A DNA stretch of 64,000 nucleotides from Pseudomonas sp. R4-35-07 (GTDB lineage: Bacteria > Pseudomonadota > Gammaproteobacteria > Pseudomonadales > Pseudomonadaceae). Every line of letters begins with the position of its first letter. Positions within the stretch are counted from its first letter, which is position 1. This document shows, in pieces, positions 19,174-63,673 of this stretch. The position numbers and the translations under genes are program-made. The stretch covers positions 2,480,001 to 2,544,000 of the forward strand of contig NZ_CP027732.1 of assembly GCF_003852235.1 (NCBI RefSeq), read 5' to 3'. The notes below the pieces were generated by a model that worked only from the letters and a program-made list of their open reading frames with translations, ran no database searches and was not told the DNA's origin.

Positions 19174-19262
19174 TGTGGGAGGGGGCTTGCTCCCGATGGC
19201 GGTGGGTCAGTAGCAGATAAGCTGCCTGATCCACCGCCATCGGGAGCAAGCCCCCTCCCACA
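19174..19262. repeat. REP doublet (REPIN), GTGGGAGGGGGCTTGCTCCCGAT family
   Basis: Two inverted REP units (TGTGGGAGGGGGCTTGCTCC and its complement) around a short loop, a structure common between genes of fluorescent pseudomonads. It lies downstream of xenA and can form a long hairpin. Similar copies occur at 21572, 34905 and 57058. Confidence 0.9.
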
Positions 19263-34895: not shown

Positions 34896-34904
34896 GCCAG
34901 GCGC

Positions 34905-35016
34905 CACTGTTCAACTGTGGGAGGGGGCTTGCTCCCGATAGCGGTGGGTCAGTCAAGGATGCATTGACTGACATGCCCTCATCGGGAGCAAGCCCCCTCC
35001 CACATTTGAACAGTGG
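34905..35016. repeat. REP doublet with extended inverted flanks
   Basis: Same GTGGGAGGGGGCTTGCTCC family as 19174. Here the symmetry continues outside the REPs: CCACTGTTCAA at 34905-34915 and TTGAACAGTGG at 35006-35016 are exact complements, giving a stem longer than in the other copies. Confidence 0.88.
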
Positions 35017-38270: not shown

Positions 38271-39197
38271 TTATTTGTAGCGTTGCTCGAACACAGCCAC
38301 TTGCTCGGGTTTTATGAGTTCGAAGGGCACCCACACCTCCGACTCAATCGGCTCGCCCTTGATCATCCGCACCGCCGCTTGTACCGCTTGAGTCGCCTGG
38401 GCTTTGGGGTCCTGGAACACTGAGGCGGTGAGCACGCCGCGCCTGATCGCCGCCAGGCCATCGGGCAGGCCATCGATGCCGACAATCGCCACGTCGCCCT
38501 TGGCTTTGCCGGCCTGCTGCAAAGCCATGGCCGCGCCAATCGCCATTTCATCGTTGTTGGCCACAATCGCATCGAACTGTGTGCCCGCCAGCAGCCAGTT
38601 GCTGGTCAGGTCCATGGCCTTGCTGCGTTGCCATTCGGCACTTTGCTGCTCGACGATCTTGATCCCGGGAAAGTCCTTGAGCACCTGCTTGGCGCCTTCA
38701 GTGCGGTCATGGGTGGCGTTTTGCGCCAGGTCGCCCATGATGATCGCCACGTTGCCCTTGCCGCCGAGTTTTTCCGCGAGGTAGCGCATTTGCAATTGCC
38801 CGGCTTCGATGTCGTTGGACGCCACGGTCACGACTCCCTTGGGCAGCGTGCGTTGATCGGGATGGCGGTTGACGTACACCAATGGCTTATTGGCGGCCAC
38901 GGCGGCGCGGGTCATGTTGGCGGTGGCGGCGGTGTCCACCGGCAGCACGATGACCGCGTCGACGTTCTGGTTGAGAAACCCTTCGACCTGGTTGAGCTGA
39001 CGCACCACGTCGCCCTGGGCGTCCTCGAACTGGATCTGCACGTCTTGTTGTTTGGCGGCCGTTTCAAGGCCAGTGCGCACGTAGGTCATGAAGTTATCGT
39101 CAACCCGCGCGATGCTCACGCCAATGCGGTACGCGGCGAAGGTCCATTGGCTGAACAGCAGCAACAGGGTGGCAACGATCAATGAATAGCGATGCAT
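38271..39197 (-). CDS. Sugar/cyclitol-binding periplasmic protein (MocB-like)
   Basis: A 308-residue ribose/inositol-type solute-binding protein with a signal peptide (about 21 residues, ending TFAAY) and the type 1 periplasmic-binding fold: RIGVSIARVDDNFMTYVRTG, AVIVLPVDTAATANMT, NRHPDQRTLPKGVVTVASND. No ATPase or permease adjoins it, so it must share a membrane transporter or act in sensing. It is the last gene of the sigma-54-driven operon. In the rhizobial moc set the corresponding component is MocB; that identification rests on context. Confidence 0.85.
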   Translation of the reverse strand: MHRYSLIVATLLLLFSQWTFAAYRIGVSIARVDDNFMTYVRTGLETAAKQQDVQIQFEDAQGDVVRQLNQVEGFLNQNVDAVIVLPVDTAATANMTRAAVAANKPLVYVNRHPDQRTLPKGVVTVASNDIEAGQLQMRYLAEKLGGKGNVAIIMGDLAQNATHDRTEGAKQVLKDFPGIKIVEQQSAEWQRSKAMDLTSNWLLAGTQFDAIVANNDEMAIGAAMALQQAGKAKGDVAIVGIDGLPDGLAAIRRGVLTASVFQDPKAQATQAVQAAVRMIKGEPIESEVWVPFELIKPEQVAVFEQRYK

Positions 39198-39215
39198 GAG
39201 GTGTTCCTCTTGTTG

Positions 39216-39995
39216 TTATAGGGTGAAGGCTTGGCGAAAACGCTCCAGGGCCGCTTCGCTGTCGCCGCTGGCCCAGGCTTCCAGGCCGACCACGCCGCTG
39301 TAGCCGATGGCCTGCAGCGCCCTGGCAATCGCCGGGTAGTGGATTTCGCCGGTGCCAGGCTCCTGGCGCCCGGGCACGTCCGCCACCTGGATTTCGCCGA
39401 TGGCGCTGCCCGCGCGCTGGATCAATTCGATCAGGTTTCCTTCGCCGATCTGCGCGTGGTAAAGGTCCAGGTTCATTTTCAAATACGGGCTGCCCACGGC
39501 TTCGATCAGCGCCAGGGTGTCGTCGGCGCGGGCGAATGGCGTGCCGGGGTGGTCGACCTCGGTGTTGAGGTTTTCCAGCAGGAACACGCGGCCGGCGTCT
39601 TGCCCCAGGCGAGCGATTTTCTCCAGCGTCTTGCAGGCACTCAGCCACATGCGCCCGGTGGTCCGGCTGACGGGTTGCACCGGCAGGCCGCCGTCACCCA
39701 GGCCGGTGCCGTGCAAATTGAGGCTGGGGCACTTGAGGCGCTCGGCAACACTTAAGGATTCGCGGGCGCTGTCGAGCAAGTGGAGGATACCGTCGGGGTC
39801 GGTGAGCGTGCCGCTGATGTAGCCGGTCATCGAGGTGAAGTCCGCGCCCGTCGCGGCCAGGGCGTTGATGTCCTTGTCTGTCCAGTTCCAGATTTCGGCG
39901 CTGAAACCCAGGGCATGAATCCGCTTGACCCGCTCGACGAAGGGCAGATCCAGAAACACCATCTCGGCACTCACCGCCAGCTTGAACGGGCTCAT
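39216..39995 (-). CDS. TIM-barrel sugar isomerase (hydroxypyruvate isomerase/OtnI-like; MocC candidate)
   Basis: A 259-residue AP-endonuclease-2-fold isomerase. FKLAVSAEMVFLDLPFVERV begins the barrel. Metal ligands are probably the glutamate in FLLENLNTEVDH (about residue 143), the aspartate/histidine in LKMNLDLYHAQIG, the region GEIQVADVPGR, and the final glutamate in GVVGLEAW. Length and motifs are close to Hyi/OtnI. Its start overlaps the stop of the dehydrogenase gene by four bases, so it acts on the ketone that enzyme makes. It parallels MocC/IolE-type steps in cyclitol breakdown. Confidence 0.85.
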   Translation of the reverse strand: MSPFKLAVSAEMVFLDLPFVERVKRIHALGFSAEIWNWTDKDINALAATGADFTSMTGYISGTLTDPDGILHLLDSARESLSVAERLKCPSLNLHGTGLGDGGLPVQPVSRTTGRMWLSACKTLEKIARLGQDAGRVFLLENLNTEVDHPGTPFARADDTLALIEAVGSPYLKMNLDLYHAQIGEGNLIELIQRAGSAIGEIQVADVPGRQEPGTGEIHYPAIARALQAIGYSGVVGLEAWASGDSEAALERFRQAFTL

Positions 39996-40996
39996 AGGCT
40001 CACCGCCGTGCCTTGCTCATAGGATTGGATACACGCGCGGGCAATCGCCAGGGCGGCGCGGGCATCTTCCCCGCTGGCCAGGGGCTTGGCGCCGCTTTGC
40101 AGGCAGTCGACGAAGTGGTTGAGCTCGGCAATGTAGGCATCGCGCAACAGGTCGGTGTCCAGGCGCTGGGTGTCGGCCTGGATGCCCTGGGCCTGGTAGC
40201 GCACCAGGTCGCAGGCCTGCACGCTGCCCATGGTCAGCATGCCGGCGCTGCCGAACACTTCACCGCGCACGTCATAGCCATACACCGCCTGGAAGCTGGC
40301 TTCGGCGGTGGCAATCGCGCCGTTATCGAAACGGATCGTGACCACGGCGGTGTCGAGCAAACCCTGGCTTTTGTAGTCCGGGGCGATCAGGGCGTCGGCC
40401 ATCACCTGCACCTGCACCGCTTCGGCGCCGGGGTTGAGGTAGCGCAGGGTGTCGAAGTCGTGGATCAGGGTTTCCAGGAAAATCACCCATTGCGGTGAGG
40501 CGCCAGGGTTGTTCAGCGCCGGGTCGCGGGTCAGGGAGCGCAGCAACTGCGGAGTGCCGATACGGCCTGCGGCGACGTCGAGGTGGGCGGCGCGAAAGCT
40601 GTTGGCGAAGCGCCGGTTGAAGCCGACTTGCAGTGGCACTCGGGCATCGGCCGCAGCGGCGATGGCGCGGTCGGCTTCATCGAGGGTGATCGCCATGGGC
40701 TTCTCGCAGAAGATGCCCTTGCCGGCACGGGCGGCGCTGATCACCAGTTCGGCATGGCTGCGGGCGGGGGCGGCGATGAGTACGCCGTCGATATCCGGGT
40801 CGTCGAGCAGTTGCTGCGGGTCGGTGTACACCTTGGCTACACCCAGCTCTGCCGCCAGACGTGCGGCTTGCCCTGGCGTAGGGTCGGCGATGGCGGCGAG
40901 GCAAGCGCCGGGAATGTGCCGGGCGGCGGTCAGGCCGTGGAAGCTGCCCATGCGGCCGGCGCCGATCAAGCCCAGGCGGATGTTTTTTGTATTCAT
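39992..40996 (-). CDS. Gfo/Idh/MocA-family oxidoreductase
   Basis: A 334-residue NAD-dependent dehydrogenase of the inositol 2-dehydrogenase/MocA family. Rossmann motif GLIGAGRMGSFHG (about residues 9-21), the EKP motif in GIFCEKPMA (about 95-103), and VGFNRRF then the catalytic HDFDTLRYL (Asp-x-x-x-His type, about 180). AGGGG lies before the ATG. It is the first gene of the operon, under a -24/-12 promoter at 41052-41069. The likely reaction is oxidation of a hydroxyl (or imine-forming oxidation) on a cyclitol such as scyllo-inosamine. Confidence 0.9.
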   Translation of the reverse strand: MNTKNIRLGLIGAGRMGSFHGLTAARHIPGACLAAIADPTPGQAARLAAELGVAKVYTDPQQLLDDPDIDGVLIAAPARSHAELVISAARAGKGIFCEKPMAITLDEADRAIAAAADARVPLQVGFNRRFANSFRAAHLDVAAGRIGTPQLLRSLTRDPALNNPGASPQWVIFLETLIHDFDTLRYLNPGAEAVQVQVMADALIAPDYKSQGLLDTAVVTIRFDNGAIATAEASFQAVYGYDVRGEVFGSAGMLTMGSVQACDLVRYQAQGIQADTQRLDTDLLRDAYIAELNHFVDCLQSGAKPLASGEDARAALAIARACIQSYEQGTAVSL

Positions 40997-41051
40997 GTAT
41001 GACCCCTTTTTATTGTTGGCCTCAGGACGGTCCTGGCGGGTAAAGGGGTAA

Positions 41052-41069
41052 GAGCAAGGGCTGTGCCAA
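41052..41069 (-). promoter_or_regulatory. Sigma-54 (-24/-12) promoter
   Basis: On the minus strand TTGGCACAGCCCTTGCTC matches the sigma-54 consensus TGGCAC-N5-TTGCT at every conserved base. It lies 56 bases upstream of the dehydrogenase start. The divergent gene encodes a sigma-54 activator, which makes a functional promoter very likely. Confidence 0.88.
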
Positions 41070-41119
41070 AATCCAAGTGACTGATATTTAACGGTTATAA
41101 ATAAACACCAAAAAAATAG

Positions 41120-41170
41120 TGTTCATTTAAATGACATGTCTATGCTGACATGTTGAAAACATGAACATGG
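41120..41170. promoter_or_regulatory. Candidate upstream activator sites
   Basis: A palindrome TCATTTAAATGA, followed by TGACATGTC and TGACATGTT 14 bases apart, then AACATG repeats. They lie about 60-100 bases upstream of the -24 element, where enhancer-binding proteins normally bind, and just before the activator's own start, so autoregulation is also possible. Confidence 0.5.
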
Positions 41171-41179
41171 ACACCGCTT

Positions 41180-43153
41180 ATGAGCATGGCGATCAGTGCG
41201 CAAGACCTCGATTACCTGACGGCGCTGGGCCCCGCGGCGCTGAATGACGGCCCGGTCGCAGCCTTGGAGCAGGCGTGGCAGGCCTGCCTGAGCGGCCAGC
41301 TGCAGCGCCCGCCCGAGGTGCGTCAGACGATCTGGGATTCCTGGCGGCGCAGCGTCGAGGCCGGCATCGATCCGGCAGACAACGCTTACCGTTTCGTCGC
41401 CGCCGACACACTGGCGGCCACCCTGGCCAGCCACCGCGTGCTGATCGCCGCCGCCGCGCAAGTCATGCACGGATTACTGGCGTACAACCCGCGCGGTCAT
41501 ATCAACCTTACCGACGCTGACGGCACCACTTTGTATTTCTGTGGGTTGGACATCACCCCCGTGGGCAGTCGCCTGCTCGAATCGGTGCAGGGCACCAACT
41601 GCACCGGCCTGGCGCTGGCCGAAGATCATCTGGTGTATGTGCTGGCCGAAGAAAACTTCGCCGTCGGCCTGCGTCAACGCCGCATGCACTGCGCCGCCGC
41701 GCCGATAAAGAATGCCCAGGGCCAGACCCTGGCCATGCTGACGCTGACGGCCGAGCCCGGCTGGTTTCACTTCCATACCCTGGGCACCGTCCAGGCGGCC
41801 GCCGAGGCCGTGTCGCGGCAGATGGCGCTGCAAGCGTTGCTGCAAGAGCAGCAAACCGTGCTTGAAGTGCTTAACGAAGGCTTGGTGGTGCTGGATGAAC
41901 GCGGGTGCATCAAGGCGATCAATCGCTACGCGCGGCAACTGTTCAACGTGGGCCTGGAGCTGCTCGGCAGCCCCTTCAATCGGCTCGCTCGCAGCGAGCT
42001 GAGCGACGCCATGCTCCTGCGCGGCGGCGAAAACCTGCGCGATCTGGACTGCACCTTTCACTTGCACGACCGCAGCCAGCTCGCCTGCCTGGTCTCGGTG
42101 TGCCCGCTGGAGCAGGGTGGGGTGATCGTGTCGGTGCGTGAAAACCGCCGCATCCGCGAAATCACCCGGCGCATTGTCGGCACCCAGGCCCGCTACACCT
42201 TTGAAACCATCCAGGGCACCTCGCGCGCGATCCAGGACGCGCTGCACCTGGGACGCATCGCCAGTCGCAGTGATTCCACCACCTTGATCCTCGGCGAAAG
42301 CGGCACCGGCAAAGAGTTATTTGCCCAGGCCATTCATAACGCCAGCGAGCGTTGCACTGGCCCCTTCGTCGCAGTCAACTGCGGCGCGATCCCACGGGAC
42401 CTGGTGCAAAGCGAATTGTTCGGCCATACCGAAGGCGCCTTCACCGGCTCGGCACGCGGCGGTTCGGCGGGCAAGTTTGAACTGGCCGATGGCGGGACGA
42501 TTTTCCTCGATGAAATCGGCGACATGGCCTTCGACGCGCAAGTCAGCCTGTTGCGCGTGTTGCAGGAAGGCGAGGTGACCCGCGTGGGCGCGAAGACCTC
42601 ACGGCCAGTGGATGTGCGCATCATTGCGGCGACCCACCGCAATCTCAGCCAGGCGGTGGCCGAGGGGGCGTTTCGCGAAGACCTTTACTACCGCCTCAAC
42701 GTGCTGAATATCACCGTGCCGCCCCTGCGTATGCGCCGTGACGATATTCCTCTGCTGGCGCGGCATTTCCTGCAGCGTTGCGCGCGTTCGTTGCGCAAAT
42801 CGCTGCAAGGATTCTCGCCGGATGCGCTGGCGTTGCTGTCGGCCCATGGCTGGCCGGGCAATGTGCGCGAGCTGGAAAACGCGATTGAGCGGGCGACCAA
42901 CCTGGCGATGGGCGAGTGGATCGAGCCTGGCGATTTACCCTTGGAGGCCAGGCCGCGCGCCCCGGCCATCCCATATGCCGCGCCAGCCACCCAAGACCTG
43001 AGCAGCCACGAGATGCACGCCATCGTCACGGCGCTGAAAAACACCGCTGGCAATATCCGCCTGGCCGCCCGGCAGCTGAACGTTTCCCGTGGCGGGCTGT
43101 ACAACAAGATGAATCGGTTCGGGTTGAATGCCGGGGATTTTCGCGGCCGGTGA
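41180..43153 (+). CDS. Sigma-54-dependent activator, AcoR type
   Basis: A 657-residue enhancer-binding protein. It has an N-terminal GAF-like sensor (about residues 75-230), a PAS-like segment (EVLNEGLVVLDERGCIKAIN, about 235-310) and an AAA+ domain with Walker A GESGTGKE (about 374-381), the sigma-54 contact loop EGAFTGSARGG, Walker B GGTIFLDEIGDM, and sensor RLNVLNITVPPLR. A Fis-type HTH (NIRLAARQLNVSRGGLYNKM) closes the protein. The contact loop reads GAFTGS where GAFTGA is the rule. It is divergent from the operon that carries the -24/-12 promoter. Confidence 0.92.
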   Translation: MSMAISAQDLDYLTALGPAALNDGPVAALEQAWQACLSGQLQRPPEVRQTIWDSWRRSVEAGIDPADNAYRFVAADTLAATLASHRVLIAAAAQVMHGLLAYNPRGHINLTDADGTTLYFCGLDITPVGSRLLESVQGTNCTGLALAEDHLVYVLAEENFAVGLRQRRMHCAAAPIKNAQGQTLAMLTLTAEPGWFHFHTLGTVQAAAEAVSRQMALQALLQEQQTVLEVLNEGLVVLDERGCIKAINRYARQLFNVGLELLGSPFNRLARSELSDAMLLRGGENLRDLDCTFHLHDRSQLACLVSVCPLEQGGVIVSVRENRRIREITRRIVGTQARYTFETIQGTSRAIQDALHLGRIASRSDSTTLILGESGTGKELFAQAIHNASERCTGPFVAVNCGAIPRDLVQSELFGHTEGAFTGSARGGSAGKFELADGGTIFLDEIGDMAFDAQVSLLRVLQEGEVTRVGAKTSRPVDVRIIAATHRNLSQAVAEGAFREDLYYRLNVLNITVPPLRMRRDDIPLLARHFLQRCARSLRKSLQGFSPDALALLSAHGWPGNVRELENAIERATNLAMGEWIEPGDLPLEARPRAPAIPYAAPATQDLSSHEMHAIVTALKNTAGNIRLAARQLNVSRGGLYNKMNRFGLNAGDFRGR

Positions 43154-43197
43154 ACGGTTACCGATGTGGGAGGGGCGATGAAGCGTACGCCGCCCTC

Positions 43198-43296
43198 TGT
43201 AGGAGCGAGCTTGCTCGCGAAAAACGCCCAGGCAACGCGTTTATTCTGGATAAACGCGGGGGGCCTGAATTTTTCGCGAGCAAGCTCGCTCCTACA
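43198..43296. repeat. REP doublet, TGTAGGAGCGAGCTTGCTCGCGAA family
   Basis: TGTAGGAGCGAGCTTGCTCG and its complement flank about 50 bases that contain a second complementary pair (AACGCG...). It is a third REP family in this window and lies between the converging activator and LacI genes. Confidence 0.9.
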
Positions 43297-43335
43297 AAAA
43301 GCTCTGACTGACTGGCATCAGGGCAAGCCCCCTCT

Positions 43336-44385
43336 TCAGGTGCCCATGTTTTCCGAGGTGACGATGTGCGGCGGGATGTGCACCCGATGCCGCGCCGGAT
43401 CGAACGCCTCGTCGCTCTGCAGCGCCACCAGCAGGTCCACCAGCGCCACCGCCGTCTGGCGTGGCTGCGAATCCATCACCACATCGATCAACCCTCGGCC
43501 CAGGGCCTGGCGCGACAGTTCGGTGGACTCCTGCAAAATGCAGCACAACGCCGGGCGCTTGGGCAGTTGCGCCAAGGCGTTGATCACGCCGTCACCGCCG
43601 CCGCCCACCACGCACAGCCCGCGCAAGTCGGTGTGGCGGCTGAGCAGGTCGAGGGTGGCTTCTTCGGTGATGTCGCAGTTGTCCAGATTGATCAGCGGTT
43701 CCAAGGGTTTGAGCCCCGGTGCGTGTTCGGCCAGGTAGCTGTGCAAGCCTTCGACCCGCGCCTGGTGGCCGAGAAAACGGTGGCCCCCCAGCAAGATGCC
43801 CACGCTGCCTTTACGCGCACCGCAGGTACGCGCCAACAGCCAGCCCATGGTGCGGCCGACGACGTGATTATCCTGGCCCACATAAGGTTCGGCCGCGCGT
43901 TCGTGGATGTCCGAGAGCAGCGCCACCACCGGCACGCCGGCTGCGCGGATCTGCGCCAGGCACGCATTGATCAACGGGTGGGCGAAGCTGACCACCGCCA
44001 GCGCGTCGCACTGCACGGCCAGTTGCTCGATCTGCGCGACGATGGCGCTGGGTGTGCGGTCAACGATGTACTCGAACTGGCAGCTCAGGTTGGCGCTGGC
44101 GTGCTGCTGCGCCGCCGCGCTGATCGACTGGGCCAGGTTGGCATAGAACGCCTGGGCGGTGCCCAGCAGGAGAATGCCGAAACGGTAGGTCGGACGCCGT
44201 TCGCGAATACGCTGGCCGATCAGTCGCGCGGCGAAATAACCGACCGCTTCGGCGGCCTGGAATACGTGCTCGGCGGTTTGCGGATTGACCGGTGCGCGAG
44301 CGTTCAATACACGGTCGACGGTGGCCACACTGAGGCCCGCGTGGGCGGCAACCGTGGCGATGGTCGGGCGTTTATGGGTATTCAT
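43336..44385 (-). CDS. LacI-family regulator
   Basis: A 349-residue LacI-type regulator. The N-terminal HTH and hinge read TIATVAAHAGLSVATVDRVLN (about residues 8-28), followed by a periplasmic-binding-protein-like sensor (RFGILLLGTAQAFYANLA; LAVVSFAHPLINA; GSVGILLGGHRFLGHQARVEG). The HTH has VDRVLN instead of the usual VSRVLN, as in regulators such as those of inositol loci. It is divergent from the mocD-like gene across a palindrome, so repression of the oxygenase operon until a cyclitol binds is likely. Confidence 0.88.
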   Translation of the reverse strand: MNTHKRPTIATVAAHAGLSVATVDRVLNARAPVNPQTAEHVFQAAEAVGYFAARLIGQRIRERRPTYRFGILLLGTAQAFYANLAQSISAAAQQHASANLSCQFEYIVDRTPSAIVAQIEQLAVQCDALAVVSFAHPLINACLAQIRAAGVPVVALLSDIHERAAEPYVGQDNHVVGRTMGWLLARTCGARKGSVGILLGGHRFLGHQARVEGLHSYLAEHAPGLKPLEPLINLDNCDITEEATLDLLSRHTDLRGLCVVGGGGDGVINALAQLPKRPALCCILQESTELSRQALGRGLIDVVMDSQPRQTAVALVDLLVALQSDEAFDPARHRVHIPPHIVTSENMGT

Positions 44386-44403
44386 GGCGAGCCCCTTGAG
44401 CGT

Positions 44404-44453
44404 CTTGATAGAAAACTATCAAGCCCCGCTGGGCCTGGATGATAGCTTGATAG
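44404..44453. promoter_or_regulatory. LacI-type operator
   Basis: CTTGATAG-AAAA-CTATCAAG (44404-44423) is a perfect inverted repeat, and a third copy of the half-site CTTGATAG is at 44446-44453. They sit between the LacI start and the oxygenase start. A dimer on the full site with a nearby auxiliary half-site would repress both directions. Confidence 0.72.
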
Positions 44454-44547
44454 GGAATGGATTCAAGCCCTTGAGGCTGATTTGGCCGCGCTCTATGGTT
44501 GGTCTCGCAAAGCCCCTGAAACCCCACGCTTGCGGAGAACGATAACA

Positions 44548-45633
44548 ATGCCTGAACACACCGCTCACCGCGCCCGGCGCGATTACAGCCTGACCGGCCC
44601 CGAAGCCGCCCGCGCCGCCGAAAAAGGCCTGGTCTCGGCCCGTTGGTACCAATCGCCGATTCCGCGCAAACGCATGAAGGAACTGATGCAGCGCCGTGAC
44701 GGCCCGGCCCTGGTCGATACGGCCATCTGGTTCACCGCGTTGTTCGTCACAGGCTTTGGCGGCTACTGGTTCTGGGGCTCCTGGGCCTGTGTGCCGTTCT
44801 TCCTCGCCTATGGCGTGCTCTACGGCACCGCCTCCAACCCGCGCTGGCACGAAACCGGGCATGGCACGGCGTTCAAGACCCGCTGGATGAATGACGCGCT
44901 GTACCCAGTGGCGTGCTTCATGTGCCTGTTCGAACCCCATGTGTGGCGCTGGAGCCATGCCCGGCACCACACCGACACCATCGTCGTCGGCCGCGACCCG
45001 GAGATCGTCGAGCCGCGCCCGCCAAGCTTCTGGATGATGTTTCTGAGCCTGTTCAATCTGCCCCTGGCCTGGAAGACCTTCAGTGGCGTGGCCCGCCATG
45101 CCATCGGCCGTATGAGTGCCCAGGAGCAGGACTTCATCCCCGAATCCGAATGGCCCAAAGTGTTTCGCGCCGCGCGCATCTGGGTGGGCATTTACGCGTT
45201 GATCATCGGCACCGCCTTGTACCTGCACAGCTGGTTGCCGCTGATGCTGGTGGGGCTGCCGAGTCTCTATGGCGCCTGGCTCGGCTACCTGTTCGGCCTC
45301 ACCCAGCACGTGGGCCTGGCCGAAGATGTGCTCGACCACCGCAGCAACTGCCGCACCATTTACATGAACCGCGTGCTGCGCTTTATCTACATGGACATGA
45401 ACTACCACCTCGAGCACCACATGTACCCGATGGTGCCGTACCACGCGCTCGAACAACTGCACGAAGAAATCCGCCGCGACTGCCCACCGCCGTATGCCAA
45501 TCTGTTCGAGGCCTACAAGGAAATCCTGCCAACCCTGTGGAAGCAGCGCAGCGACCCGACCTATTTCGTCCAGCGCCCCACCCATAGTGGCGAGCGAGCT
45601 TGCTCGCGCTGGGCTGCGCAGCAGCCCCAATAA
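44548..45633 (+). CDS. mocD: Fatty-acid-desaturase-like membrane oxygenase (MocD-like)
   Basis: A 361-residue membrane di-iron protein. Histidine boxes are HETGH (about residue 100), HARHH (about 137), and HLEHHMYP (about 290), with hydrophobic segments near residues 60-95, 160-180 and 210-250. It is followed by a Rieske ferredoxin and a ferredoxin reductase, so it should hydroxylate or O-demethylate a substrate with electrons from NADH. In Rhizobium leguminosarum MocDEF is the complex needed for 3-O-methyl-scyllo-inosamine. The last 15 residues (SGERACSRWAAQQPQ) and the stop come from a REP element inserted at the end of the gene. GGAG precedes the ATG. Confidence 0.85.
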   Translation: MPEHTAHRARRDYSLTGPEAARAAEKGLVSARWYQSPIPRKRMKELMQRRDGPALVDTAIWFTALFVTGFGGYWFWGSWACVPFFLAYGVLYGTASNPRWHETGHGTAFKTRWMNDALYPVACFMCLFEPHVWRWSHARHHTDTIVVGRDPEIVEPRPPSFWMMFLSLFNLPLAWKTFSGVARHAIGRMSAQEQDFIPESEWPKVFRAARIWVGIYALIIGTALYLHSWLPLMLVGLPSLYGAWLGYLFGLTQHVGLAEDVLDHRSNCRTIYMNRVLRFIYMDMNYHLEHHMYPMVPYHALEQLHEEIRRDCPPPYANLFEAYKEILPTLWKQRSDPTYFVQRPTHSGERACSRWAAQQPQ

Positions 45634-45713
45634 ACCTGACGCGGTCTTTCAGATAACCCTCAATCGCGATCCTGGGCTGCTTCGCAGCCCAGCGCGAGCA
45701 AGCTCGCTCGCCA
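45588..45713. repeat. REP doublet overlapping the oxygenase 3' end
   Basis: TGGCGAGCGAGCTTGCTCGC and its complement bound the element, with inner GCTGGGCTGC arms. The left unit forms the final codons of the mocD-like gene; the right unit lies 30 bases before the ferredoxin start. The hairpin could alter the ratio of oxygenase to electron carriers. Confidence 0.9.
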
Positions 45714-45743
45714 CCAGGAACGTTATTCACTTGGAGAAAAATC

Positions 45744-46064
45744 ATGAACGATCAATGGATCGACGTCTGCGCCGTGGGCGAGATAGACGAAGAAGACGTG
45801 CTGCGCTTCGACCACGGGGCACACACCTATGCGGTGTTCCGCTCCGCCGACAATGAGTTTTTCGCCACCGCCGGCCTGTGCACCCACGAGAAAATCCACC
45901 TGGCCGACGGCCTGGTCATGGACCATGTGATCGAATGCCCCAAGCACAACGGGCGTTTCGATTACCGCTCCGGCAAGGCCCTAGGCGCGCCGGTCTGTGT
46001 CAACCTGAAGACCTACCCGGTACGGGTCGAAGCGGGGCGAGTGTTGCTCGCTGTCACGGCGTGA
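45744..46064 (+). CDS. mocE: MocE-type Rieske [2Fe-2S] ferredoxin
   Basis: A 106-residue Rieske-type ferredoxin that carries electrons from the reductase to the oxygenase. Cluster ligands are in LCTHEKIHLADG (Cys-x-His, about residue 46) and ECPKHNGRFDY (Cys-x-x-His, about 65). AspTrp-rich start and length fit the MocE family. TTGGAG precedes the ATG. Its stop overlaps the reductase start (TGATG). Confidence 0.9.
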   Translation: MNDQWIDVCAVGEIDEEDVLRFDHGAHTYAVFRSADNEFFATAGLCTHEKIHLADGLVMDHVIECPKHNGRFDYRSGKALGAPVCVNLKTYPVRVEAGRVLLAVTA

Positions 46065-47266
46065 TGATGAGCGCGCCCCTGATTATCGTTGGCGCCGGCC
46101 ATGCCGGTGGCCGTGCGGCGTTGACCCTGCGCGAGGAGGGTTACGACGGTCGGCTGATCCTGATCGGCGACGAACCGCACGTGCCCTACGAACGACCGCC
46201 GCTGTCCAAGGCCCTGTTGCAAGGCAGCCAGGACCTGGCCGGGTGTAGCCTGTGCGACAGCGCGCGGCTGGCCGAGCTGGATATCGAGCATATTGCCGGC
46301 AATGCGGTCAGCCAGCTGGCGCCGCAGCAGCATCGGCTGCAACTGGCCGATGGCCGCTGGCTGGACTATGCCGGCGTGCTACTCGCCACTGGCGGCCGTG
46401 CGCGGCGTCTGCCTCAGGCCCAGGCCAATGTGCTTTACCTGCGCACCCACGATGAAGCGCTGGCCCTGCGCGTCCAGTTGCGCCCCGGCACCCGGCTGGT
46501 GATCGTCGGCGGTGGGTTTATCGGCCTGGAAGTGGCGGCGACTGCGCGAGGCCTGGGCTGCGCGGTGACGGTGCTCGAAGCCGGGCCGCGCCTGGCCGGC
46601 AGGGTATTGCCAGCGATCATCAGTGCAGCATTGCTGGATCTGCACCGCGAACAGGGTGTGGACGTGCGCTTGAACGTCACTGTGGAATCCATCCAGGCCG
46701 ACGCCGTGCAACTGGTGGACGGGCAGACGCTGCCCTGTGACCTAGTGGTGGTCGGCATCGGCATGCAACCCAATATCGAACTGGCGGCAGCGGCCGGGCT
46801 GGAGGTAGGGCAGGGCATTCGCGTTGACGTGCACTTGCGTACCAGCGCGGCGAATATCTACGCAGCGGGAGACGTCTGCGAGTTCCGGCTTGGCGGCCTC
46901 TATCAGCGTCAGGAAACCTGGCGCAATGCCGAGGCCCAAGGTCGGCATGCCGCGTTGAACCTGCTGGGCCGGGCATTGCCCTTCGACGCCGTGCCGGGTT
47001 TCTGGTCCGACCACTATGACTGGGGCTTGCAGACGGTCGGTGTGATGACGCCGGAGGTGGTCAGCCGCGCCTTGCCCCACGGCGGTTTGCTGCTGTTCTA
47101 CCTCGATGCCGATGGGTATCTGCAAGGCGCCTGCGGCTGGGCGCCGGGCAATAGCGTGGCCAAGGACATCAAGCTGTGTGAACGCCTGATCATCGCCCAT
47201 GTGCCGTTGCCGTCGGTGGGCCTGGCTGATCCGGCGGTCTCTCTCAAACATTGGTTGCGGGGCTGA
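46064..47266 (+). CDS. mocF: FAD-dependent ferredoxin reductase (MocF-like)
   Basis: A 400-residue NAD(P)H:ferredoxin reductase of the ring-hydroxylating dioxygenase type. FAD motif IIVGAGHAGGRAAL (about residue 8), YERPPLSKALL, the NAD motif VIVGGGFIGLEVAATARG (about 146), and the late FAD motif NIYAAGDVCEF (about 263). The C-terminal domain ends GDPAVSLK-like. It should reduce the adjoining Rieske ferredoxin. The start overlaps the ferredoxin stop by one base; the second ATG three bases on is equally possible. Confidence 0.88.
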   Translation: MMSAPLIIVGAGHAGGRAALTLREEGYDGRLILIGDEPHVPYERPPLSKALLQGSQDLAGCSLCDSARLAELDIEHIAGNAVSQLAPQQHRLQLADGRWLDYAGVLLATGGRARRLPQAQANVLYLRTHDEALALRVQLRPGTRLVIVGGGFIGLEVAATARGLGCAVTVLEAGPRLAGRVLPAIISAALLDLHREQGVDVRLNVTVESIQADAVQLVDGQTLPCDLVVVGIGMQPNIELAAAAGLEVGQGIRVDVHLRTSAANIYAAGDVCEFRLGGLYQRQETWRNAEAQGRHAALNLLGRALPFDAVPGFWSDHYDWGLQTVGVMTPEVVSRALPHGGLLLFYLDADGYLQGACGWAPGNSVAKDIKLCERLIIAHVPLPSVGLADPAVSLKHWLRG

Positions 47267-47267
47267 C

Positions 47268-48146
47268 ATGCGCGAATTTCTGGTATTCCAATCCCTGTGG
47301 GCGATGCACACCGAACCCGGCCCGCTCGAGGCGCAACTGGATCGCATCGCCGCCGCCGGTTTCGATGGCGTCACCGATCACTACTGGAAGGCGGCCGAGG
47401 TAGCACGCCTGCAAGCGGCCGCCGCCGCACGGGGTTTGCAGATCGAAGGCCAGCTGTTTCCGCAATCGGTGGATGACCTGGCGCGGGCACTGGAGGTGAT
47501 CAGCCGCTACGGCTGTCATCACCTCACTCTGCAAGCCGACGTGCGCCCGCGTACCCAGGCCGAGGCGGGCCGGTTGATCGACGGCTGGCAACGCCTGGCC
47601 GAGCAGGTGGCTTTCCCGATCCTGCTGGAAACCCACCGTTATCGCCTGACCAGTGACCTGTTGTTCACCCTCGACCTGCTGGCGCAAATGCCTGACCTGA
47701 AACTGCTGGCGGACCTGTCCCACTACGTGGTCGGTGGCGAATTGCCCGAACCTGGCGCCGCCGACGACGATGAACAGATACGCACGATTCTGCACCATAG
47801 CTGGGGCTTTCATGGGCGCGTAGCCAGCAGTGAACAGGTGCAGGTCGCGCTGGATTTCCCCCAGCATCGAGCCTGGGTAGAACGCTTTCTCGGCTGGTGG
47901 CGCTACGGAATCGAGGACTGGTTGGCCCGCCCGAACACCCCCCAAAGCCTGTCCTTCACCTGCGAACTCGGCCCGCCGCCCTATGCGATCACCGGCGCGG
48001 ATGGCCGGGAACTCAGTGATCGCTGGGCTGAGGCGCTCACCATGAAAACCCTGGTTCGCAACCTATGGAAGCAGTGCCTGGACGATCAACTCAGCAGCCC
48101 GGTGCTGACCGCCCCAATCAAAAACACCCCCAGCAGCGCGCGGTAG
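47268..48146 (+). CDS. TIM-barrel sugar-phosphate isomerase/epimerase-like protein
   Basis: A 292-residue AP-endonuclease-2-fold protein, last gene of the oxygenase operon. It starts one base after the reductase stop. Metal ligands are probably in PILLETHRYRLTSD (glutamate and histidine), KLLADLSHYVVG (aspartate, histidine), the HHSWGFHGRVA segment, and FTCELGPPPYAI. This is the inosose-dehydratase/epimerase-like class often found with moc genes. The last 20 residues lie antisense to uppP and read like out-of-frame sequence, so the ancestral stop was probably earlier. Confidence 0.82.
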   Translation: MREFLVFQSLWAMHTEPGPLEAQLDRIAAAGFDGVTDHYWKAAEVARLQAAAAARGLQIEGQLFPQSVDDLARALEVISRYGCHHLTLQADVRPRTQAEAGRLIDGWQRLAEQVAFPILLETHRYRLTSDLLFTLDLLAQMPDLKLLADLSHYVVGGELPEPGAADDDEQIRTILHHSWGFHGRVASSEQVQVALDFPQHRAWVERFLGWWRYGIEDWLARPNTPQSLSFTCELGPPPYAITGADGRELSDRWAEALTMKTLVRNLWKQCLDDQLSSPVLTAPIKNTPSSAR

Positions 48147-48958: not shown

Positions 48959-49136
48959 AATACGTGTCCTTGAAAAAAGGGAGAGCCGGCGAAGTTTATT
49001 CTAAATGTTTCTGGATTTCGGCCAGGGGCCAGGGCTATTTGCAATCGGTTCAGCCAATAGAAAGGTTGGGCAATGTATTGGCCTTGCCAGCCGATTTGTG
49101 AACAATGGCGCCCTGCGTTTTTTCACCGAGAGCCCC

Positions 49137-49643
49137 ATGCCTGAAACCACTGTCGAATTGATCCAGACCGGCCCTGAACACGCCGAGCTGATCCGCAATC
49201 TCTACCAGTACTACGCCTATGAGTCTTCAGATTGGGAGCAGGAAGATGTCGAGGCCGATGGCCGTTTCTACATCCACGACGAGCACCTGGCCCGCTATTG
49301 GCATGACCCGCAGTGGAGCGCCAATCTGTTATTGGTCGACGGCTATGTGGCCGGCTTCCTGCTGATCGAAGGCAGCGAACTGCCAGGCATCGATGCCCTG
49401 GAGCTGGCCGACCTGTTCATCCTCAAGCGCTACCGCCGCAAAGGCATCGGCCGCGCCATCGCCACCCAAGTGCTGTGCAGCGGCGAGGCCAATTGGCTGG
49501 TGCGGTTTTATGACCAGGACGAAGTGTCCCAGGCGTTCTGGCGCACGGTGCTGGATAACCTGCCGCGCCCGGTGCAAACCCTCGAACTCGAGGATGAGCC
49601 GCACTTGATCAGCTACCTGGTGACCCACGCTTCACTGCATTGA
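49137..49643 (+). CDS. GNAT-family N-acetyltransferase
   Basis: A 168-residue GNAT acetyltransferase. AHxIxNLYQYYxYE-type opening (AELIRNLYQYYAYESSDW), ADLFILKRYRRKGIGRAIA as the acetyl-CoA site (R-R-K-G-I-G), and WLVRFYDQDEVSQAFWR near the end are seen. This subgroup is common in Pseudomonas and has unknown substrates. The start at 49137 is the first methionine aligned with the family; the frame is open upstream. It converges with the AraC/DJ-1 gene, overlapping its stop by 12 bases. Confidence 0.85.
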   Translation: MPETTVELIQTGPEHAELIRNLYQYYAYESSDWEQEDVEADGRFYIHDEHLARYWHDPQWSANLLLVDGYVAGFLLIEGSELPGIDALELADLFILKRYRRKGIGRAIATQVLCSGEANWLVRFYDQDEVSQAFWRTVLDNLPRPVQTLELEDEPHLISYLVTHASLH

Positions 49644-50767: not shown

Positions 50768-51397
50768 ATGAACAGCGAAACCAGAAGTGCACGGCAGACC
50801 ATTCTTGAAAGTGCGCAAGCGATTGTGGGCAGCAAGGGATTTTCCGCGGTGGGATTGAACGAAATACTTCAAGCCGCCGACGTGCCCAAGGGTTCGTTCT
50901 ATCACTACTTCAGCTCCAAGGACGCCTTCGGTGTGGTGTTGCTCGATACGTATTTCGACAACTACGTGCTCGGCATGCAGCAGTTGTTCAGCCAGGCGGA
51001 CCTGTCTGCGTACGCCAAGCTGATGCGCTACTGGCAGGCCTGGATCGACAACCACACCGGCTGCACCGACGCCGGCAAATGCCTGGCCGTCAAACTCGGC
51101 GCCGAAGTGTCTGACCTGTCAGAGCCGATGCGCCTGGCGTTGCAACGCGGCACTTCACGCACCATCGAGCTGCTCGCCACGGAGTTGCAGCACGGTGTGC
51201 AAGACGGCTCGCTGATGATCGGGCAACCCCCCGAAAGCCTGGCCCGACGCCTGTATGCGTTGTGGCTGGGAACCAGCGTCATGGGCAAGATTACCCGTAC
51301 CACCGCGCCGTTCGATGAGGCGCTGGGGCTGACCCGACAGTTGTTGGGCCACCCCGAAAACCCTGTTAATCACAACGATCGAGGCACTGGAAAATGA
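50768..51397 (+). CDS. nemR: TetR-family regulator, NemR-like
   Basis: A 209-residue TetR repressor. The HTH reads GLNEILQAADVPKGSFYHYFSSK (about residues 27-50, broken here only by spacing). The ligand domain has a cysteine pair in GCTDAGKCLAVKLGAEVSD (about residues 98-106), corresponding to the redox/electrophile-sensing cysteines of NemR. It is coupled by ATGA to the Hsp31-like gene and followed by the ene-reductase. The layout matches an electrophile (methylglyoxal, N-ethylmaleimide, quinone, hypochlorite) response operon. Confidence 0.85.
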   Translation: MNSETRSARQTILESAQAIVGSKGFSAVGLNEILQAADVPKGSFYHYFSSKDAFGVVLLDTYFDNYVLGMQQLFSQADLSAYAKLMRYWQAWIDNHTGCTDAGKCLAVKLGAEVSDLSEPMRLALQRGTSRTIELLATELQHGVQDGSLMIGQPPESLARRLYALWLGTSVMGKITRTTAPFDEALGLTRQLLGHPENPVNHNDRGTGK

Positions 51398-52071
51398 AAG
51401 TATTAATGGTACTGACCTCTCACGACCAGCTTGGCGATACCGGCCGCAAGACCGGCTTCTGGCTCGAAGAGTTTGCCGCTCCCTATTACGCGTTCAAGGA
51501 CGCCGGTGCCGATGTAGTGCTGGCATCGCCCGCCGGTGGCCAGCCGCCGCTGGACCCGGTCAGCGATCAGCCGGACTTCCAGACCGACCAAACCCGACGC
51601 TTCGCCGCCGACCCGGCCGCGCAACAGGCCTTGGCCACCACGGTGAAACTGGACGCGGTCAACGCCGATGACTTCGACACCGTGTTCTACCCAGGTGGCC
51701 ACGGCCCGCTGTGGGACCTGGCCGAGTCGCCGGTTTCCATCGCGCTGATCGAGTCGTTCGAGCGTGCCGGCAAGCCTGTCGGGTTTGTCTGCCATGCACC
51801 GGGCGCCTTGCGTCACGTCAAGGCGGTCAACGGCGAGCCATTGATCAAAGGCCGTCGCGTCACCGGGTTCTCCAACTCCGAAGAGGCGGCGGTGGGATTG
51901 ACCGAGGTGGTGCCCTTCCTGATTGAAGATGAATTCAAGAAGCTGGGTGGCAACTATGAGAAGGGCGCTGATTGGCAGTCTTTCGTGATCGTCGATGGCT
52001 TGCTGGTGACGGGGCAGAACCCCGGCAGCTCCAGCGAAGTAGCCAAGGCGCTGCTCAAACTCACCGCTTAA
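51394..52071 (+). CDS. DJ-1/PfpI-family protein (Hsp31-like glyoxalase/deglycase class)
   Basis: A 225-residue DJ-1-superfamily protein of the GATase1_Hsp31-like type. Catalytic cysteine is in GFVCHAPGAL (about residue 130), the acid in TGFWLEEFAAPYYAF (about 27), and the histidine in FYPGGHGPLWDL. Members act as glutathione-independent glyoxalases or protein/DNA deglycases against methylglyoxal. It overlaps the TetR stop by four bases and lies 77 bases before nemA, so both serve aldehyde/electrophile detoxification. Confidence 0.87.
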   Translation: MKVLMVLTSHDQLGDTGRKTGFWLEEFAAPYYAFKDAGADVVLASPAGGQPPLDPVSDQPDFQTDQTRRFAADPAAQQALATTVKLDAVNADDFDTVFYPGGHGPLWDLAESPVSIALIESFERAGKPVGFVCHAPGALRHVKAVNGEPLIKGRRVTGFSNSEEAAVGLTEVVPFLIEDEFKKLGGNYEKGADWQSFVIVDGLLVTGQNPGSSSEVAKALLKLTA

Positions 52072-63094: not shown

Positions 63095-63673
63095 GGGTCA
63101 CTTTTGGAGGGACCCAAAAGTAACCAAAAGGTCCTCGCCCCACCACTCGGTGCCTCGCCTAGGCTCGGCATGCCCTCACTCCGGCTTGAATCCGTGGGCC
63201 GCCGCCATGCGCCATCCATGGCGCAGGGCGGCTAACCCGGCGTCCTGCCGGGTTACCCACGGATTCAAGCCTGCGTTCGGCCAGCGTGGTTTAACGGGGC
63301 GCCCGAGATCAAGATCCAAAGCAAAAGCAGGAGCAAGAGCCAGATCAAAAGATTGCTGACTTCGTCAGCGTCTAAGGAAGTAGAAGCCATATCGCGCACG
63401 CTTCAATAATCAGGTCGGCTTTAAGGCCGCCGCGCTTTGCTTTTGCTTTTGCTTTTGATCTTAAGCGCCCCGTCAACCACGCTGGCCGGAATTCGATAGG
63501 GATTTGGGGGGTAAACCGGCAGGACGCCGGTTTAGCCGCCCCGCGCCATGGATGGCGCGTGGCGGCGGCCCCCCCAAATCACTGTCGGATTACGGGCACA
63601 CCGAGCCTAGGCGAGGTGCCGAGTGGTGGGGCAAGAGCCTTTTGGTTACTTTGGGGCTTTTCCAAAGTGACCC
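63095..63673. repeat. Large imperfect inverted repeat (about 580 bp), no gene
   Basis: GGGTCACTTTTGG at the left and CCAAAGTGACCC at the right bound arms that are complementary in blocks: AAGTAACCAAAAGG, CCCCACCACTCGG, GCCTAGGCTCGG and GCGCCATCCATGGCGC each return in reverse. The centre has runs of AAAGCAAAAGCAGGAGC and GCTTTTGCTTTTGC. Open frames inside are poor. It fills the gap between the IS4 element and the IS3 element and resembles a non-autonomous mobile or structured-RNA repeat of Pseudomonas. Confidence 0.85.

Follow-up and report, generated by a model that had tools for sequence, protein, structure and literature searches.

A two-module gene island of a plant-associated Pseudomonas that probably strips methyl groups from plant cyclitols for inositol breakdown

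Introduction

Why does a Pseudomonas carry genes like those with which rhizobia degrade rhizopines? The question is raised by an island at positions 38271-48146 of a 64,000-nucleotide stretch of DNA (the window; positions 2,480,001 to 2,544,000 of contig NZ_CP027732.1) from Pseudomonas sp. R4-35-07, whose genome is a single 5.84-Mb contig. An initial annotation, made from the sequence alone, had described it as a complete moc-like (rhizopine-type) island, of a combination that in rhizobia degrades 3-O-methyl-scyllo-inosamine, and had taken it to suggest a root-associated lifestyle or a related methylated or aminated cyclitol. Sequence comparison shows two modules, and we consider it reasonably probable that they serve a system in which oxidative O-demethylation of O-methyl-inositols is followed by oxidation and isomerisation into the inositol (iol) pathway, in agreement with a related methylated cyclitol. 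Pinitol and similar plant cyclitols would then probably be demethylated by two linked gene sets of this plant-associated Pseudomonas, and the product passed to inositol breakdown. O-methyl-inositols are abundant plant solutes. Within the literature covered by our search, partly in excerpts, no bacterial gene set was found assigned to O-methyl-inositol use, rhizopine genes apart.

Organisation of the island and its oxygenase chain

All nine genes of the initial annotation were confirmed in place, and they form two transcription groups (Table 1). In module A, a LacI-family gene on the minus strand is divergent from MocD-MocE-MocF-TIM2, with successive gaps of 110, 2 and 4 bp. In module B, Gfo-TIM1-SBP (SBP, substrate-binding protein) occupy the minus strand, Gfo and TIM1 overlapping by 4 bp, and a GAF/AAA+/Fis sigma-54 activator is divergent from them; the two TIM barrels that had been predicted are TIM1 and TIM2. 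The closest MocD among the searched genomes is that of Pseudomonas sp. W4I3 (98% identity), followed by P. orientalis and P. fluorescens PfR 37 (95%). Eighty of 104 loci encoding a MocD relative were kept for comparison of neighbourhoods. Since the divergent LacI gene is present in all 80 kept Pseudomonas loci, and since Gfo, TIM1, SBP and the activator stay together in module-B loci fetched from genomes where module B is unlinked to A, the grouping of the island genes is not due to chance.

The predicted MocD-MocE-MocF chain is indeed present. In MocD, the His boxes HETGH, HARHH and HLEHH are the three expected of a membrane desaturase/hydroxylase, and the protein is 54% identical to two rhizopine MocDs. 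MocE scores 167 bits against the 136-bit cut-off of the NCBIfam MocE family TIGR02377 and shares 66-70% identity with the MocE proteins of three rhizopine clusters, and MocF shares 44-46% with their MocF proteins. By these comparisons, MocDEF are true relatives of rhizopine MocDEF. A structure model of MocD was set aside (pLDDT 60, pTM 0.54).

Comparison with rhizopine moc clusters

We name rhizopine clusters by their gene content, which is mocDEF together with Gfo, an SBP and a regulator of the MocR type. Phyllobacterium zundukense Tri-48, R. indicum and S. meliloti RCAM1115 each have one, and R. leguminosarum RCAM2802 shows the same layout with mocR not listed. With the rhizopine mocCABRDEF sets (S. 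meliloti L127, Phyllobacterium L122 and R. indicum L124), the island has in common MocDEF and the Gfo and SBP superfamilies. It differs in having no MocR (GntR-aminotransferase), its regulators being LacI and a sigma-54 activator, and no ChbG, PanB or PurU gene. Nor does it hold an IolE-family gene, the counterpart of MocC, which we take to be IolE-like: TIM1 reaches 25 bits against a cut-off of 290, and TIM2 has no NCBIfam match. "Complete" thus overstates the case, as MocR, the ABC permease and ATPase and an IolE-family gene are missing.

The MocB and MocA labels fared in a similar way. The best match of rhizopine MocB in this genome is the SBP of the iol cluster (49%), with the window SBP second (45%); conversely, the window SBP is 53% identical to that iol SBP, the closest among the proteins compared, versus 42-44% to rhizopine MocB. 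The family NF052284 ('rhizopine SBP') was tried as a MocB test and discarded, as the window SBP scored 33 bits and MocB from a genuine cluster was also unmatched at E 1e-20; the direct comparison was used in its place, from which the MocB-like gene is judged not to be an orthologue of MocB. Rhizopine MocA matches no protein of this genome better than the window Gfo, yet at only 33%, and Gfo is about as close to IolG. Both labels hold at superfamily level only; judged by membership, the island falls outside the moc systems, though it may work like one.

Of the module B proteins, Gfo and the SBP have inositol-type relatives. Eleven of the 15 PDB matches of Gfo are named inositol dehydrogenases, and its score with the inositol dehydrogenase model TIGR04380 is 314 bits, below the cut-off of 355; the best PDB sequence match of the SBP is 4yo7. 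As for TIM1, at least 98% of the 61 sequences aligned keep the motif PGRxEPGTGEI. IolI was considered as a named family for TIM1 and dropped, there being no NCBIfam match of that kind.

Co-occurrence with the iol pathway

The annotation had remarked correctly that no iol genes adjoin the island, yet an iol cluster lies ~280 kb away on the same chromosome, with IolE, IolG, SBP, ATPase and permease; the IolG scores above the cut-off of the equivalog model for inositol 2-/D-chiro-inositol 1-dehydrogenase. Across 298 Pseudomonas genomes, none dropped, MocD (detected at E 1e-40) was found in 59, module-B Gfo (E 1e-110) in 60 and iolE in 135. Every MocD carrier (59/59) and every module-B carrier (60/60) has iolE, versus 76 of 239 MocD-negative genomes (Fisher 7e-25), which supports an inositol-type pathway, as had been proposed.

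The two modules also co-occur when unlinked, in keeping with a single joint pathway. Both are present in 50 genomes: within 25 kb of each other in 34, on the same contig but 93 kb-5.0 Mb apart in eight, and on different contigs in eight, of which G067, G122 and G286 lie <10 kb from a contig start and may be assembly splits (other contig ends were checked in part). Inside iolE-positive genomes and without the 34 adjacent ones, the A-B association persists (16 with both, 9 with A, 10 with B and 66 with neither; odds 11.7, p 2e-6).

Conserved control sites

Control by a sigma-54 activator and a LacI protein, as annotated, agrees with a conserved promoter and a conserved operator. TGGCACAGCCCTTGC is the sole exact sigma-54 promoter match in the window and lies ~58 bp upstream of Gfo. 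Because 0.41 such matches are expected by chance, it proves little alone, and the evidence is its conservation: the promoter recurs with at most one mismatch in 62/62 module-B intergenic regions (49 exact, the copy of this genome included), 34-76 bp upstream of Gfo. Between LacI and mocD stands a perfect inverted repeat, CTTGATAGAAAACTATCAAG, which is found with at most three mismatches in 116/116 Pseudomonas loci examined, a count in which some genomes appear twice and from which L154, with a 5-mismatch form, had been dropped by a length filter. CTTGATAGAAAACTATCAAG has a single exact copy in the whole genome. Operator-like sites with at most two mismatches number 15, versus four for a control pattern; they include one-mismatch sites at genome positions 1133339 and 2185499 and a two-mismatch site at 2813037, in the stretch with the iol cluster. 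LacI control of module B was considered and rejected as improbable, there being no second exact operator in the genome; the 14 inexact sites were not followed.

Some MocDEF loci outside Pseudomonas share an operator core with the island, which speaks for the proposed demethylation system. Of the 17 regions between LacI and mocD examined there, eight hold TGATAGA-N1-4-ATC on one strand, whereas shuffled sequences give 0.04 on average and 2 at most, and TGATAGA is present in the Pararhizobium (L118) and R. johnstonii 3841 (L126) loci. The core is missing from the other nine regions, including those of S. meliloti 1021 (L117) and M. huakuii (L119).

MocD phylogeny and related loci

The MocD tree relied on is a careful one of 45 rows rather than a quick one of 98; it holds 27 of those 98 (12 of 81 from Pseudomonas, with Paraburkholderia L129 and Ruegeria L132 left out) and 18 new loci, taken from 29 matches outside Pseudomonas. 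Its 12 Pseudomonas sequences group together (100/99) and separately from 29 alphaproteobacterial ones, which make up a second clade (96/95); outside both lie the alphaproteobacterial L115 and L195 and the gammaproteobacterial L190 and L191. Four rhizopine MocD rows fall within a 15-row alphaproteobacterial clade (96/89; internal order unresolved), among MocDs linked to LacI genes of the FixV type. The rhizobial FixV-linked mocDEF arrangement, together with a proposed inositol-derivative signal of FixV, has been published (PMC3538637, excerpt), and "FixV-type" here denotes by position the LacI genes that this excerpt places beside rhizobial mocDEF, the genes with which our comparisons were made. 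LacI had been annotated as standing "instead of" MocR. It need not be a replacement, as LacI (FixV)-linked mocDEF is common in the rhizobial loci examined and the rhizopine MocDs are nested there.

The FixV-type loci (S. meliloti 1021 pSymB L117, Pararhizobium L118, M. huakuii L119 and R. johnstonii 3841 L126; cf. PMC3538637) share the divergent layout of the island, and both have a neighbouring barrel; identities are 38-40% for LacI and 55-57% for MocD. The island has TIM2 where these loci have a PanB-like gene, and where they have a complete ABC (ATP-binding cassette) operon it has module B with its sigma-54 control. The rhizobial barrel (Msi119 type, by position) gave no BLASTP match to TIM1 or TIM2. 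An inositol-type SBP/ABC set and Gfo adjoin mocDEF in the Pararhizobium locus, and in this and two further alphaproteobacterial LacI-mocDEF loci (L199 and L201) the neighbours are a MocB-like SBP, ABC genes and Gfo. In P. syringae of woody hosts, mocDEF is likewise followed by an isomerase barrel (xylA2), without mocCABR, and the excerpt describes neither module B nor an iol linkage (PMC5132102). Going by position, XylA2 is probably the same gene as TIM2.

The substrates of PanB, FolD and PurU are one-carbon units on tetrahydrofolate, so their presence beside mocDEF fits a demethylation. Of 12 plasmid loci of rhizobial genera, 11 have a PanB-like gene adjoining mocD, and the one without, L116, also lacks mocE and mocF; PurU accompanies it in five of the 11 and FolD in four. 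No match to any of the three was found in the other five plasmid loci (L114, L115, L129, L130 and L132), and PanB-like genes occur in 8 of 18 further fetched loci. The sole PanB-like match among Pseudomonas loci, in L047, is distant (35%) and at the locus edge; leaving it aside, loci with TIM2 (Pseudomonas, L115, L130, L190 and L191) have no PanB-like gene and vice versa, the two occurring together in none of 173 MocD loci (with repeats). The PanB homologue of moc clusters (e.g. L124:12750-13592) reaches just 123 and 102 bits with PanB models whose cut-offs are 272 and 208, and so is likely to be a paralogue that uses another acceptor.

Several relatives carry other neighbours. Genes for RNA repair (an operon of RtcB, RlaP and RNA 3'-phosphate cyclase) and a second sigma-54 activator gene lie beside LacI in L006 (3936-8793), where the proteins were scanned, and also in L030 and L008; in L008 the operon stands between modules B and A. 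A divergent LacI-mocDEF clade (L073-L076, L078 and L079; P. bohemica, P. putida-group and others) has another LacI gene and a Gfo of unrelated type as neighbours, with TIM2 seen in all except L078; L073 also has a short-chain dehydrogenase/reductase (SDR), a PhyH dioxygenase and DUF1989, possibly for another substrate. A sterol-desaturase-family gene adjoins MocD in R. leguminosarum Vaf-108 (L116), near iolE/iolD, and in Jiella (L130).

Proposed pathway and alternatives

In the proposed O-demethylation system, pinitol, ononitol, sequoyitol, quebrachitol or the like would be bound by the SBP, an orphan that probably hands the cyclitol to the ABC transporter encoded with the iol genes. Electrons would pass from NADH through MocF and MocE to MocD, which would hydroxylate the methoxy carbon to give free inositol and formaldehyde; we infer this demethylation from the protein family, the role proposed for rhizobial MocDEF and the PanB/PurU/FolD partners of alphaproteobacteria. 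Gfo may convert the inositol into an inosose, and TIM1 and/or TIM2 may shift the keto group to yield 2-keto-myo-inositol, which would be broken down by IolE and the later iol enzymes; the link to iol itself is shown by co-occurrence. LacI is predicted to bind the conserved CTTGATAGAAAACTATCAAG upstream of mocD, and the sigma-54 activator to drive Gfo-TIM1-SBP from its conserved site. The iol pathway of the same genome (L120) handles unmethylated inositols; it shares with the island an SBP and an IolG-like dehydrogenase and differs in its separate locus and regulation.

Several observations weigh against this proposal. In NCBIfam, TIM1 is nearest to hydroxypyruvate/2-oxo-tetronate isomerases and not to a named inosose isomerase, and in each of the 62 module-B Gfo proteins a Glu stands in the alignment opposite an Asp of IolG that is presumably catalytic (Asp172 in B. 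subtilis numbering). As the operator has a single exact copy in the genome, LacI probably does not control the two modules jointly. Nine of the 59 genomes with A lack B and 10 of the 60 with B lack A, and 13 Pseudomonas loci of at least 18 kb (L022, L032, L037, L040, L046, L050, L052, L064, L068, L071, L072, L077 and L083) contain module A without any module-B match, although B could lie farther off. PanB, PurU or FolD genes were not found beside the Pseudomonas genes. Relatedness confounds the co-occurrence: the control gene xylA is present in 44/59 MocD-positive versus 62/239 MocD-negative genomes (odds 8.4; xylA-iolE odds 10.6), and because this gene of an unrelated pathway associates too, shared ancestry accounts for part of the association, though not for the absence of iolE exceptions. 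Finally, another mocDEF, induced with mocB-like and iol genes by root exudate, was read as rhizopine use (PMC5789663, excerpt).

If A and B were unrelated neighbours, A demethylating some O-methyl compound and B using another cyclitol (e.g. scyllo- or chiro-inositol), their separate regulation, the genomes with one module only and the RNA-repair operon inserted between them in L008 would be accounted for; we hold this to be unlikely, as the co-occurrence of A and B exceeds adjacency and in some FixV-type loci of alphaproteobacteria Gfo and SBP genes accompany mocDEF. Quite unlikely is a different methylated sugar or glycoside, with B resembling keto-glycoside lyases (oxidation by Gfo, elimination by a barrel) and MocDEF acting on a methylated plant sugar, against which stand the unbroken tie of both modules to iolE and the grouping of SBP and Gfo with inositol proteins.

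Rhizopine use needs the iol pathway, and its presence here, the MocDEF relatives at 44-70% identity and the choice of the window Gfo by MocA would all suit a true rhizopine system degrading 3-O-methyl-scyllo-inosamine made by rhizobia in nodules. The missing MocR, MocC and ChbG-type genes, the preference of MocB for the iol SBP, the distance of MocA, and the nesting of rhizopine MocDs among FixV-linked rhizobial MocDs, with Pseudomonas in a separate clade, make this very unlikely. Elsewhere, the mocD promoter of S. meliloti L5-30 is rhizopine-inducible (PMC10107442, excerpt), and pinitol and ononitol were offered to a MocR biosensor, whose activation is reported for scyllo-inosamine and L-3-O-methyl-scyllo-inosamine (PMC6668481, excerpt). 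For the mocDEF genes of P. syringae, hydroxylation of a hydrocarbon or an aromatic compound has been suggested (PMC5132102, excerpt). Such a hydroxylase would suit the resemblance of the ferredoxin and reductase to aromatic dioxygenase carriers in profile searches and a distant Ruegeria MocD homologue (L132, 31%) near an aromatic-type dioxygenase subunit. We regard it, and a lipid desaturase, as extremely unlikely: the gene adjoins a sugar-type LacI in all kept Pseudomonas loci, the nearer annotated plasmid loci (L117, L129 and L131 are unannotated) have sugar, cyclitol and one-carbon genes and no aromatic ones, and the NCBIfam lipid desaturase models DesA/DesB, membership of which the annotation had named as its counter-case, give MocD 25-33 bits against cut-offs of 500. 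A study of bark-beetle bacteria, in which Pseudomonas sp. 7 grew less on D-pinitol than on glucose (PMC4738288, excerpt), was set aside and nothing is drawn from it.

Implications

FixV is a LacI-type activator of nifA2 that gates nitrogen fixation in Mesorhizobium loti. A wider proposal, tentative and rather doubtful as a joint claim, is that LacI (FixV-type) and MocDEF would form a regulon of old date, common to several classes, which serves to demethylate O-methyl-inositols and shares an operator of the TTGATAGA type, that rhizopine catabolism would be a late offshoot of it, and that FixV would sense an O-methyl-inositol (pinitol/ononitol). PanB-like and TIM2 would then be alternative partner barrels of the demethylase, and methyl-inositol may be the signal of FixV in M. 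loti. Pinitol and ononitol accumulate in Lotus nodules (PMC8730688, excerpt). If these readings are true, a gene set for O-methyl-inositols has been named in about one fifth of the sampled Pseudomonas genomes (59/298), P. syringae mocDEF-xylA2 gains a function, and the ligand and binding site of FixV become a testable prediction.

Annotated features and neighbouring genes

Table 1 Genes and predicted control sites of the island (window positions)
Feature	Position	Strand	Basis
SBP, module B sugar/cyclitol substrate-binding protein, orphan (no permease/ATPase adjoining)	38271..39197	-	Pfam Peripla_BP_4
TIM1, module B AP_endonuc_2 barrel, hydroxypyruvate isomerase/OtnI type; candidate inosose isomerase	39216..39995	-	profiles, well below curated cut-offs
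Gfo, module B Gfo/Idh/MocA dehydrogenase, IolG-like	39992..40996	-	TIGR04380, PDB matches
Predicted sigma-54 promoter TGGCACAGCCCTTGC of Gfo-TIM1-SBP operon	41054..41068	-	pattern match, conservation
Sigma-54 activator, module B, GAF + AAA+ + Fis	41180..43153	+	domain profiles
LacI-family regulator, module A	43336..44385	-	domain profile; 38-40% to LacI adjoining rhizobial mocDEF
Predicted LacI operator CTTGATAGAAAACTATCAAG	44404..44423		inverted repeat, conservation
MocD-like membrane di-iron oxygenase, module A, FA_desaturase family	44548..45633	+	profile, identity, His boxes
MocE Rieske ferredoxin, module A	45744..46064	+	TIGR02377 above cut-off
MocF FAD ferredoxin reductase, module A	46067..47266	+	profiles; identity to rhizopine MocF
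TIM2, module A second xylose-isomerase-like barrel	47271..48146	+	probable counterpart of P. syringae XylA2, by position

Among the proteins scanned between 34 and 53 kb of the window (51394-52071 left out), no ABC permease, ATPase or iol gene was found, and 49005-49643 had no profile match at E 1e-8. The neighbours there are an SDR, an AraC regulator, a major facilitator superfamily transporter, a YghU-type glutathione S-transferase, UppP, a GlxA-type AraC regulator, a TetR regulator and an oxidoreductase of the old yellow enzyme type. Inverted pairs of a TGGGAGGGGGCTTGC-type repeat, ~70 bp apart and REP/REPIN-like, occur at 34904-35016 and also near 19176/19246, 21577/21647 and 57060/57130. 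Two matches to the TwoAYGGAY RNA above the Rfam gathering score, at 63176-63278 (minus strand) and 63478-63604 (plus strand), point apart with ~200 bp between them and may form a structured repeat pair.

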